From: Propionibacteriaceae bacterium
Lineage (GTDB): Bacteria > Actinomycetota > Actinomycetes > Propionibacteriales > Propionibacteriaceae
Direction: 5' to 3'
DNA: 46,942 bases
NCBI GenBank assembly: GCA_031285845.1
Contig: JAITVK010000003.1
Coordinates: 1 to 46,942 of the forward strand
A program made the translations under genes and the position numbers. Shown here piece after piece: positions 34,389-38,850 of this stretch; positions within the stretch are counted from its first letter, which is position 1; the number at the start of each line of letters is the position of its first letter. The notes under the pieces are model-generated. The model saw nothing but the letters and a program-made list of their open reading frames with translations. It was not told the DNA's origin and searched no databases.

Positions 34389-34499
34389 ATATGGCCTTGC
34401 CGGAAGACCGGCCTGACAAATTATATCCTAAGCTCGCCTCAAGGGCCAATCTCGGCCGAGTCGGAAGAGGGCATAAAACCGATCCGCCTCGACTGCGCG

Positions 34500-34572
34500 C
34501 ATCCCCAACGGGGTTCGAACCCGTGTTGCCGCCGTGAAAGGGCGGTGTCCTAGACCCCTAGACGATGGGGAC
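34500..34572 (-). tRNA. tRNA-Glu (anticodon TTC)
   Basis: Acceptor GTCCCCA pairs with TGGGGAT, discriminator G. The stem CCGCC/GGCGG encloses CTTTCAC, anticodon TTC. First of the cluster; 111 nt without a gene lie between it and tRNA-Asp. Together with tRNA-Glu(CTC) at 1705 both Glu codons are covered in this window. Confidence 0.95.
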
Positions 34573-34590
34573 ATGGCTACAGCGCCTACC

Positions 34591-34619
34591 AGTGTAGGGG
34601 ATCAGAGCCGATCCGTCAC
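34591..34619 (-). promoter_or_regulatory. Promoter of the Glu-Asp-Phe tRNA cluster
   Basis: On the minus strand GTGACG, an exact 17-nt spacer and TACACT lie 19 nt before tRNA-Glu. This is the best-spaced promoter in the window. Confidence 0.6.
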
Positions 34620-34817
34620 CTAGGCGCGGTGGCTCAGGTCATCTGGGCGCGTGCTGTGAGAGGCGCGGTGACTCAGCTCGGTGACCCACGATTGGCCGAG
34701 GCGCACCGAGTCAACCTCGAGCTCGGCGCGAGCCCGACCGTGCCAGCCTCACCGCGGGTGCCGAACCCGACCAGGCCAACCCTGCGTCACCGCGCAATGA
34801 CCTGTCACAATGGGAGC

Positions 34818-35531
34818 ATGGATTGGTCGACCGTGATCGTGGCGGGAGTCGCCGCCCTGGTCGGGGTGGTGGTGGCTTTCGTGGCGGATCGCCGCCGATC
34901 TCAGGCTCGTCGGCGCATTCTCAGTTCGCCACCGCAGCGAACGAGTCTGGAATCGTTGGCGGCCCCGGAATACCTCAGTTCGGATCAGGTCAGGTCACTC
35001 CGCCAGACTGAACGTGCGGCGAGGCTGCCCGACGACGGCGCGCTGCGACACCCGCCTGTGACGTCAGACCAACCAGAGTTGGCGGCCGGTTGGGCCAGTG
35101 CTGACTTCATCAACGACCCGGTCGCCAGGCGAGCCGTGATGTGGGACCCGATGGTGTTGATGGTCGAGACGGTGACACGGTGGCAGTATCTGCCCCCGGT
35201 CATCCGTACGGCGTTGGATGCCGACCGAGCGTTGGTGGTCGTCGCCTCGTCCATCGACGAGTCGATCGTGACGACGTTGGGACTCAACGCCGTCGCTGGT
35301 CGGCTGAGGTGCCTGTGTGTCCTCACAGATCAGGTCGCCGACGTGCCGAGGTTAGTCGGAGGAGAGGTGGTCTCCAGCGCTGATCTGGCTGCCGACTATG
35401 TGCCGGCGACCAGTTGGGGTCGGTGCGAGGCTTGGGTGGCGGACAGCGACCACAGTTGGATCGTGGGTGGCTTCGGCACTCAGCCCCAGCCCAACTCATC
35501 CAGTCGCTCGTCGTCGATGCCGAAGAAGTGA
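34818..35531 (+). CDS. Membrane-anchored protein resembling a stand-alone GroEL apical domain
   Basis: 237 residues from ATG 34818, with CACAAT six bases upstream; the longer frame begins in non-coding sequence. Residues 4-23 are one membrane helix followed by [10 protein letters not shown], so the rest should face the cytoplasm. Residues 91-218 align by eye with the GroEL apical domain: [10 protein letters not shown] with GYLSPYFINK, DPMVLM with [14 protein letters not shown] with [27 protein letters not shown] with [32 protein letters not shown] with [12 protein letters not shown], and WIVGG with TIIDG. The equatorial ATPase domain is absent. The connection is to a substrate- and GroES-binding fold, not to folding activity itself. 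The 3' end overlaps the next gene (convergent). Confidence 0.7.
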   Translation: [237 protein letters not shown]

Positions 35532-35833
35532 GCCATCTCGTGGATCACGGTGATCCCGATCTCTTCGATCAGTTCATCGCGGTCGTCGCACAGTCGTTTC
35601 AGTGGGCCGCGATAGATCAGAATACGATCCGGCAGCACAGCGCCGTACGACGTGTCTCGTTCCGAGCGTGGCACGCCTTCGTACAAGCCGAGCAGGTCGG
35701 GATCGGAACCCTCGGGCTCGTCCTCGACGAGGATGACCACATTGTCGACCAGGTCCAGCAACTCCATCGGAACCGAATCCAAGGCTTCGGACACCGCTTG
35801 GTCGAACTCAGCGTCGGTGATGTTCACAGCCAT
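35480..35833 (-). CDS. Small zincin-like metalloprotein (HExxH, DUF1025-type)
   Basis: 117 residues from ATG 35833; an ATG at 35842 is the alternative. TAAGAT at 35846-35841 sits seven bases before the chosen start, a leaderless arrangement. The C-terminal IGITVIHEMAHFFGIDDERLDELG carries HExxH plus a downstream Asp, the compact minigluzincin-like site. FDQAVSEALDSVPMELL and LPDRILIYRGPL are the other family segments. Whether it is an active peptidase is unknown for the family. No signal peptide. Its last 52 nt overlap the 3' end of the convergent apical-domain-like gene. Confidence 0.88.
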   Translation of the reverse strand: MAVNITDAEFDQAVSEALDSVPMELLDLVDNVVILVEDEPEGSDPDLLGLYEGVPRSERDTSYGAVLPDRILIYRGPLKRLCDDRDELIEEIGITVIHEMAHFFGIDDERLDELGWG

Positions 35834-35840
35834 GGTCGCC

Positions 35841-35846
35841 ATCTTA
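35841..35846 (-). promoter_or_regulatory. -10 box of a probable leaderless promoter (metalloprotein)
   Basis: TAAGAT on the minus strand, seven bases before the ATG at 35833. Confidence 0.45.
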
Positions 35847-35941
35847 CCCAGGCCAGCGGTCTACACCGGCGATCAGGTGTGAGGCCGCGGGTCCGGTCGG
35901 TGGAAGTGAATCATTGTTTCGCGTCAACAGTGGGTCTCAGC

Positions 35942-35971
35942 TTGGGGTTCGGGAGTAAAATGGCCTAAACT
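35942..35971 (+). promoter_or_regulatory. Candidate infB promoter
   Basis: TTGGGG at 35942-35947, an 18-nt spacer and TAAACT at 35966-35971; TAAAAT at 35956-35961 is a second possible -10. It would give a leader of about 130 nt. Confidence 0.4.
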
Positions 35972-36011
35972 GTGCGGTGGTCCGTTGCAGTGACGGACTC
36001 GTAACAGTAAA

Positions 36012-36108
36012 GGTTGGGCAGTTGCTCATGAGCCAGCGATGAGTTGTACAAAATGAGCACTCGAACCATGTGACTTGCCCAGACGCGGTCTGGGCACAAA
36101 GGAGATTT
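36012..36108 (+). promoter_or_regulatory. infB: Structured infB leader with competing hairpins
   Basis: GCCCAGAC-GCG-GTCTGGGC (36077-36095) forms an 8-bp hairpin three bases before the AAAGGAG ribosome site. Its 5' arm can instead pair upstream: TGCCCA (36076-36081) with TGGGCA (36015-36020). TGCTCAT (36023-36029) can also pair with ATGAGCA (36053-36059). Mutually exclusive folds next to a ribosome site suggest regulation of IF-2 synthesis, but no experiment or known family supports it. Confidence 0.35.
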
Positions 36109-38850
36109 GTGGCTAAGCCCCGCGTCCACGAGCTCGCGAAGGAGCTCGGACTCGACAGCAAGACTGTGCTGTCCGCACTCACCGACATGGGTGAGTACGT
36201 TCGCTCGGCGTCATCGACCATCGAGCCGCCCGTGGCCCGTCGGCTGAGGGAACGCTTCTCGTCTCAATCCGCGCAAGCGGCTCCGATGCCCGCGGTCGCG
36301 ACACCGCCGCCCGCTCCAGCCGCTCGTCCAGCGTCGACTGCTAGCCAACCGCCTGCTGAAGAGGTCAAGCCCAAGCCGGAACCGGTCGTCACGCCGACTC
36401 CTACGGCGCGCAAACCCGCACCGGCAGCGCCGCGTGGCGCCTCGGCCGCTCCAACACCGGTCGTGCCGCGTCCGGGCCGCCAGGCCGCATCCGAGGCCAC
36501 ACCGCCCGCGCCAGCCGCACCGTCGAGGCCAACGCCGGACAAGCCCGCCATTCCTAAGCCATCCTCGATGATTCCTCGCCCGATCCCACGGCCCATGCCG
36601 CATCCTGGGCAAGGTCGTCGTCCCGGCGCGCCGCGTCCGGGAAACAATCCGTACGCCTCATCGCAGGGCATGGGGGTCCGTCGTCCGCGCGAGGACGATT
36701 CTCGTCCCGGTACGGGCGGGCCCAGGCCGCCACGCCCCAGTGGTGTTGGCCGTCCCGGCGGTGGCATCGGCGGTCCTCGTCCGACTCCCGGTGGGATGGG
36801 CGCCAGCGGCCAGGGGCCATCGAGTCGTCCGGGCGGACGCGGTCGCGGCGGAGTCGGCGGCGGTTTTGGCGCGCCGACACCCGGACAGGCCCCGGCTGGC
36901 CGCGGAGGTCGCGGTGGTCGAGCGGGTTCGGGAACCCAGGGAGCCTTCGGGCGTTCGGGCGGACCGAACCGTAAGAACAAGAAGTCGAAGAAGGCGCGTC
37001 GTCAAGAGTTCGACGAGATGGAAGCGCCGACGATCTCGGGTGTGCGTATTCGCCCGGGTGACGGCCAGACGATCCGGCTCCCCCGTGGCTCGTCGCTGAC
37101 TGATCTGGCCGAAAAGATCTCGGTCGATCCGGCTCAGCTGGTTCAAGTGTTGTTCAACATGGGCGAGATGGTCACCGCCACCCAGTCTGTGTCGGATGAC
37201 ACCTTGGAGATCTTGGGCACAGAGCTCAACTACGACATTCAGGTGGTGTCTCCTGAGGACGAGGACCGCGAACTGCTGTCGTCGTTCGACATCGACTTCG
37301 GTGAGAATTTGGCCGATGACGCCGATCTGGTGGTGCGCCCGCCGATCGTCACAGTCATGGGTCACGTCGACCACGGCAAGACCAAGCTGCTCGACGCTTT
37401 CCGTCACACCAATGTGGTGGCCGGCGAGGCGGGCGGGATCACCCAGGCCATCGGCGCGTACCAAGTGACCACTGAGGTCGACGGCCAGGAGCGCCAGGTG
37501 ACTTTCATCGACACCCCGGGCCATGAGGCCTTCACCGCGATGCGTGCCCGTGGCGCGCAGGTGACGGACATCGCCGTGCTCGTGGTCGCCGCCGACGATG
37601 GTGTGATGCCTCAGACGATCGAGGCGTTGAACCACGCCAAAGCGGCCGACGTGCCGATCGTGGTGGCCGTGAACAAGATCGACAAGGTGGGCGCTGATCC
37701 GACCAAGGTGCGTGGCCAACTGACGGAGTACGGCCTGGTGCCCGACACCTACGGCGGCGACACGATGTTCGTCGACGTCTCGGCGGTGACCCGTCAAGGT
37801 CTCGACGAGCTGTTGACCGCGATCGTGTTGACCGCTGACGCCGAGCTGGATTTGCGGGTCGATCCCGACATGCCGGCTCAAGGCGTGGCCATCGAGGCTC
37901 ATTTGGATCGTGGACGCGGTCCGGTCACCACGGCCATCGTTCAGCGCGGCACCCTGCGCATCGGCGATCCGCTGGTCGCTGGCAATTCGTACGGTCGTGT
38001 GCGGGCGTTGATCAACGACGTCGGCGCGACGGTGGACGAGGCTCCGCCGTCGACTCCGGTCCAGATTCTGGGCTTGACGGCCGTTCCTGGCGCTGGCGAC
38101 AACTTCCTGGTCGTCGACGACGAGCGTACCGCCCGTCAGATCGGCGAGCGTCGTGAGGCGAGAATGCGCGCGGCCGCGTTGGCTAAGTCCGCCAAGCGTC
38201 GCACGCTGGAGGACCTGTTCCGCGAGATGGAGAAGGGCGAAGAGCTCAACCTCATCCTCAAAGGCGACTCGGCCGGTTCGGTCGAAGCTTTGGAGGACGC
38301 CTTGCTCGGCATCGACGTCGGCGACGAAGTCAGCCTGCGCATCATCGACCGTGGCGTCGGCGCGATCACGGAGACCAACGTCACGTTGGCGGCCGCGTCG
38401 GACGCGATCATCATCGGTTATCGGGTACGCGCCCAAGGCCACGCCACCCAGTTGGCGAACCAAGAGGGTGTGGACATCCGCTACTACTCGATCATCTACC
38501 AAGCGATCGACGACATCGAGTCCGCCTTGAAGGGCATGCTCAAGCCGATCTTCGAAGAGCAGGAGCGCGGCACGGCTCAGGTCCGTCAGGTCTTCCGTTC
38601 CTCCAAGGTTGGTGTCATCGCCGGCTGTATGGTCATGTCTGGCACGATTCGGCGTCACGCCAAGGCCCGGTTGGTCCGCGACGGCATCGTCGTCGCCGAG
38701 ACCTCGATCAACACCTTGCGTCGCGAGAAGGATGACGTGGTCGAGGTTCGTGAAGGCTACGAATGCGGTGTGACCTTGGACGGCTTCAGTGACATCCGGG
38801 TCGACGACATGATCGAGACGTACGAAATGGTTGAGAAACCACGGGTCTGA
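36109..38850 (+). CDS. infB: Translation initiation factor IF-2
   Basis: 913 residues from GTG 36109, which follows AAAGGAG and begins with [20 protein letters not shown], the conserved IF2_N domain. A long Pro/Ala then Gly/Arg-rich linker (about 55-300) is typical of actinobacteria. A second IF2_N ([17 protein letters not shown]) precedes the GTPase domain: GHVDHGKT (about 418-425), DTPGHEAF and NKID (about 521). Domains II-IV follow, ending in the fMet-tRNA-binding C2 domain. IF-2 positions initiator tRNA on the 30S subunit and promotes subunit joining. rimP, nusA and ylxR, which often precede it, are absent here. rbfA follows at 14 nt. Confidence 0.97.

Follow-up and report, generated by a model that had tools for sequence, protein, structure and literature searches.

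A free-standing GroEL apical domain with a predicted membrane anchor: a natural protein family and a possible selective adaptor

Free apical domains of the chaperonin GroEL have been engineered for decades, and the minichaperone 191-345 and GrAD (190-333; PMC9138447) are active without ATP, as also described in PMC4973282. Among the matches listed in the literature searched, from which subscription journals were mostly missing, there was no natural apical-only bacterial protein. Here we describe one, encoded at positions 34818..35531 (+ strand) of a stretch of 46,942 nucleotides (contig JAITVK010000003.1, referred to below as the window) from a Propionibacteriaceae bacterium. The 237-amino-acid product (P0001) carries the GroEL apical domain on its own, is predicted to sit at the membrane and belongs to a family conserved over many genera. 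We propose, with a probability of roughly 0.42, that this membrane-held free apical domain is a selective protein-binding adaptor and not a folding machine.

Profile matches of the apical-only protein start at about position 195 and end at about position 340 of the GroEL profiles, and residues 84-222 (35067..35483, +) were assigned to GroEL 191-339 by homology and predicted fold. The match stops at GroEL 336-339, where GroEL returns to its intermediate domain, and is followed only by an unmatched C-terminal tail of 15 residues. Neither the equatorial ATPase domain nor the intermediate domain was found in the 237-residue protein, in which only an anchor and a linker lie N-terminal to the apical match. 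The predicted structure showed the apical fold over GroEL 191-339 when compared with known structures, including 1jon, and protein P0004 gave the same outcome. The protein scored below the curated cut-offs for whole proteins (10.3 bits versus 34.3 for Pfam, 30.3 versus 582.1 for TIGR02348). The first-pass annotation, made from the sequence alone, had claimed a GroEL apical domain without the ATPase, with the match stopping where the intermediate domain resumes. The observation was confirmed and these parts of its interpretation were supported; the structure prediction that it had proposed as a check yielded the apical fold, while the profile searches supported the homology over ~195-340 and not a match at whole-protein cut-offs. 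The anatomy and homology of the protein are thus firm: at the level of sequence, its homology to the apical domain, its lack of ATPase parts and its conservation as a family are established, and the apical fold is predicted by the model. Since the ATPase is absent, the apical-only protein is not a chaperonin.

The client-binding groove of the domain was compared across 42 members of 209-275 amino acids (L013 was cut at 275, its own frame continuing into a DUF202 domain), with GroEL numbering taken as chain index plus one, consistent with the structural comparison. This set excludes L015, which has a very long linker, P0010, which is identical to L016, and 14 loci out of the 22 in L040-L061, for which no clean frame was extracted (L042 among them is the same gene as L011), as well as the loci from the draw on the order beyond the first 30 and the strongly divergent L095, L096 and L097 (genomes G061, G088 and G021). 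Eight large hydrophobic client/GroES positions were taken from PMC7289027; its Tyr222 and Tyr226 were not used, since I/L/V and Lys stand at these sites in the GroELs of the comparison. All eight were kept in 14/14 GroELs compared; the family members keep three (n=2), four (n=9), five (n=13), six (n=16) or seven (n=2). Position 203 is never large hydrophobic or aromatic (0/42) and is charged in 18 members, and position 263 is large hydrophobic in 3/42 and charged in 16. Large hydrophobic residues persist at 234, 237, 259 and 204 in 38, 40, 36 and 42 of the 42, respectively, whereas at 268 and 241 most members have replaced the basic and the hydrophobic residue. Positions 234 and 237 lie in the equivalent of GroEL helix H (residues 126-134; 35193..35219, +), as placed by DSSP of the model and by the alignment. 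The equivalent of helix I (residues 148-159; 35259..35294, +) includes N157, which corresponds to GroEL Asn265. This asparagine is present in 42/42 members, as is Gly318, and Phe204, G310 and W331 are present in 40, 40 and 39.

Conservation was then ranked over the 134 positions of the domain. Sixteen groove positions were compiled, position 201 being our own addition to those given in PMC7289027 and PMC2741606. Their median rank was 78.5/134, not above the rest of the domain, and the best conserved among them, 265, 204, 261 and 237, ranked 1, 5, 30 and 31. High ranks were reached by a family-specific stretch, residues 189-214 (35382..35459, +), where G310, W331, P313, aromatic 323, A/S309, D306, C320 and aromatic 311 ranked 4, 9, 14, 16, 21, 23, 24 and 27 and where GroEL has other residues. 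Beyond the scaffold shared with GroEL, conservation in the family thus appears to fall outside the groove behind the promiscuity of GroEL. The family also lacks the GroEL loop 279-286 (about 8 residues), its site being T170-D171 in the window's protein (35325..35330, +), with 41/42 members gapped at 283-285. One relative, L017:1501-2301, carries a 24-residue insertion compared with L012 where the other rows of alignment A1 miss this loop.

The N-terminal part of the protein accounts for the proposed location. Residues 6-22 (34833..34883, +) form a hydrophobic segment with a mean hydropathy of 3.01 and a predicted transmembrane helix, which extends over residues 3-36 in the model, and are followed by the positive flank RRRSQARRR (residues 25-33; 34890..34916, +). 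A segment exceeding a hydropathy of 1.6 in 17-residue windows was found near the N-terminus of 42/42 members, and the C-side flank was more positive than the N-side one in 40/42 when the 20 residues following the segment were compared with those preceding it. Since the positive flank lies on the domain side of the sole N-terminal hydrophobic segment, a single-pass N-out/C-in topology is predicted, which would place the apical domain on the cytoplasmic side, in line with the first-pass annotation. The anchor, the basic flank and the apical stretch are also present in the divergent L095, L096 and L097. Anchor and domain are joined by a linker of about 45 residues (residues 37-83; 34926..35066, +), modelled at low confidence (pLDDT 54-72 by block over residues 41-80), in which P39 and Y52 are invariant in both alignments (A1, 16 rows; A2, 19 rows). 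In L015:1399-2541, the linker has expanded into a long repeat region, rich in Pro, Glu and Asp, that separates the anchor from the apical domain.

A search of 5.8 billion proteins with the single sequence returned the window's own protein as the sole match, and a scan of genome contigs with the single protein as query gave no relative. A profile search, in which only the 7995 candidates that shared the most words were scored, found 18 further proteins. The apical-only gene was present in 18/57 relatives, all 18 belonging to the 33 relatives from its own family. Of 196 genomes drawn from the order, 75 were of this family; 53 of the 75 gave an apical-only match whose E value, 1.9e-24 at worst, equalled or beat that of the best GroEL, and re-listing the other 22 added three weaker apical-only matches in frames of 212-260 amino acids, giving 56 carriers among the 75 family genomes sampled and 19 in which the gene was not found. 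Among the matches listed for 121 genomes of three sister families, no best match rose above the GroEL band, and in the 13 of these that were re-listed every match fell in a reading frame of 535 amino acids or more. Draws from the class and the phylum at E <= 1e-25, a threshold that would miss weak members, gave 2/296 matches, both in the family, and 1/296, the own genome. Annotated protein records include members from Nigerium massiliense and Propionicimonas paludicola, which NCBI assigns to Propionibacteriaceae and Nocardioidaceae, respectively. Since the Nigerium protein P0010 is identical to the L016 protein (genome G029), we infer that the carrier family, in the genome collection's own taxonomy, is Propionibacteriaceae. 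One genome holds two apical-only genes (G146:C93:102-752 and G146:C71:1956-2582).

In a maximum-likelihood tree of the 42 members and 15 GroELs, the members formed one group with a support of 100/100, separated from the GroELs by a branch of 1.43 changes per column. Read simply, this tree has the family arise once from a GroEL; it splits family and GroELs by this one long branch and cannot tell which GroEL paralogue was the source. Divergence has been rapid: within the window's genus (eight fetched loci), the apical-only protein shares 32-43% identity with its homologues, compared with 53-70% for the neighbouring metallopeptidase (found in six loci) and 73-81% for infB (found in four; a 21-residue fragment in a fifth was left out). 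This faster divergence fits the tracking of a partner.

The expression signals of the family differ from those of groEL. The start codon of the window's gene is supported by the alignment of M1 in 16 members and by a promoter element just 5' of it, CACAAT (34806..34811, +), which ends 6 bases before the start. When spacings of 3-49 were tried over 26 upstream regions, the pair A at -11 and T at -7, counted from the start codon, occurred in 18/26, the next-best spacing reaching 5/26; the first position of the shared element is C, not T, in 16/26. We take this geometry to be that of a leaderless -10 element, and CACAAT is likely the -10 of a leaderless-type transcript. No CIRCE was found in the 26 upstream regions (150 bases each) at a tolerance of 5 mismatches in 18 positions, and no HAIR was found in them either. 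The two groEL loci of the own genome have two CIRCE each, with one mismatch apiece. As both own groEL loci carry CIRCE and the family genes none, the apical-only gene does not seem to be controlled like GroEL, and heat-shock control through these elements was rejected.

The surroundings of the gene vary by lineage and thus name no partner. A Zincin_1 minimal metallopeptidase gene (35480..35842, -; PF06262, E 6.6e-31) converges on it in the window, the 3' ends of the two sharing 52 bases (35480-35531). Such a gene lies convergent within 1 kb in 13/20 fetched loci, at 4.7 kb in L077 and was not found in the fetched piece in six. Zincin was present in 55/56 carriers (the exception being G103) and in 5/19 non-carriers, the latter being mostly close kin, with 10/19 from two genera; in several carriers (e.g., G193 and G212), the two genes are unlinked. 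Near the Zincin genes of four of these five non-carriers (those fetched: G164, G120, G106 and G180), no neighbour from six carrier loci was found. A DUF202 pair or single gene lies directly downstream in 4/20 loci, and L013:1471-2595 (G020) is an in-frame fusion of the apical domain with a DUF202 membrane domain (E 7.8e-15). DUF202 was present in 10/24 genomes and in none of the six searched from the window's genus, G000 among them, so that it was rejected as an obligatory partner; in other lineages, its place is taken by SMR transporter genes or a Sensor-domain gene. On the other side of the window's gene lies a tRNA-Glu (ttc) gene (34499..34572, -), with tRNA-Asp and tRNA-Phe further out. 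In four loci of the same genus (L062, L064, L066 and L067), the apical-only gene adjoins infB, facing away from it; in the window (34499-38850), the metallopeptidase gene sits between the two, and the pair seems inverted relative to those four relatives. PADLOC gave no match for the three members tested and the sole PHROGs match was the phage GroEL family; anti-phage defence and a phage origin were rejected on these results.

We infer a selective adaptor role, set on a membrane topology that is itself predicted, and regard a general membrane minichaperone as its main rival; the adaptor is preferred over a general holdase mainly because the family-specific residues are better conserved than most groove positions. 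A duplicated groEL would have lost all but the apical domain, and the shortened copy would have gained a membrane anchor and the linker of about 45 residues. Free of ring, ATP and lid, the domain would have retained its scaffold and some of the helix H/I groove but lost Tyr203 and Val263, and most members would have acquired the conserved aromatic set 311, 323 and 331. It would then bind, independently of ATP, one particular segment of a partner close to the membrane, the length of the linker giving reach. Several observations weigh against a selective adaptor. The positions most conserved overall (265, 318 and 262) are common to GroEL too, and most members retain Phe204, Asn265, the leucines of helix H and Leu259, as a generic minichaperone also would; the three divergent members L095, L096 and L097 keep aromatic 311 and lack W331 and aromatic 323; aromatic residues 311, 323 and 331 may just be a repacking of the core around the lost loop; in 9/42 members, another 17-residue window exceeds the hydropathy threshold within the apical domain, these windows mapping to core strands and helices in the model; and the variable gene context points to no partner. 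Tentatively, the groove could have been dismantled and a new aromatic face could make the protein a receptor at the inner face of the membrane for one specific protein or peptide, outside protein folding. The three divergent members without aromatic 323 and 331 lower our confidence in this reading as well as in the adaptor.

A natural membrane-bound minichaperone, holding exposed hydrophobic stretches of many proteins without ATP, is in our view unlikely: GroEL apical domain 191-376 does inhibit fibril formation of three clients (PMC4973282) and the large hydrophobic residues at 234, 237, 259 and 204 are retained, but those at 203 and 263 are lost in 42/42 and 39/42, the groove is not specially conserved and no CIRCE was found. 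Capture of GroES, in which the helix H/I groove would bind the mobile loop of GroES and so recruit or titrate it at the membrane, draws on the GroES contacts Leu234, Leu237 and Asn265 named in PMC7289027, kept in 38, 40 and 42 of 42, and on the two GroELs of the own genome. It is nevertheless highly improbable, since a single site would lack the avidity of the ring, positions 268 and 241 are mostly replaced, and all 22 re-listed genomes, 19 of them without the gene, have two full-length GroELs, so that no covariation of the gene with GroEL number is seen among them. The holdase and GroES-capture functions raised in the first-pass annotation are less supported than its structural claims, with three to seven of eight hydrophobics left and an unremarkable groove rank, although the three GroES contacts are retained. 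Service as an adaptor that brings clients to the product of a neighbouring gene, whether the Zincin_1 metallopeptidase or the DUF202 membrane proteins, is suggested by the convergent Zincin genes, their presence in nearly all carriers and the DUF202 fusion; we consider it improbable, the Zincin version being lowered by the persistence of both genes unlinked in several carriers, and the DUF202 version being opposed by the window's genus and by the other genes found in that place. Finally, a groEL duplicate in decay that no longer has a function would suit the rapid divergence and the 19/75 family genomes in which the gene was not found, but is hardly credible given open frames over many genera, the near-invariance of N265, G318, G310 and W331, a common promoter element and an anchor in every member compared.

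Compared with group I GroEL/Cpn60, the family is alike in apical sequence and in predicted fold over 191-339, keeping Asn265, Gly318 and Phe204, but it lacks the equatorial and intermediate domains, loop 279-286, Tyr203 and Val263, has no detected CIRCE and adds one predicted membrane anchor. It thus offers a direct test of what remains possible for an apical domain once ring, ATP and lid are gone, in a series where the client groove has been altered in graded steps, from seven to three of the eight positions. The engineered minichaperone covers almost the same part of GroEL, likewise as an isolated domain (PMC9138447; 1jon); it is laboratory-made and soluble and has kept its client surface, whereas the family protein is natural, predicted to be anchored and degraded in its groove. 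BBS6, BBS10 and BBS12 are likewise chaperonin descendants with altered client positions (PMC2846930), but unlike the apical-only family they keep the three-domain structure. The sole comparable reuse in the literature consulted is the Fab1_TCP domain of PIKfyve, a chaperonin apical domain likewise put to use in a non-chaperonin (PMC2846930); it is closest to CCT3 of group II and part of a large eukaryotic kinase, whereas the family described here is group I, stands alone and is bacterial. By analogy, the apical-only protein may work like the engineered minichaperone or like the PIKfyve domain.
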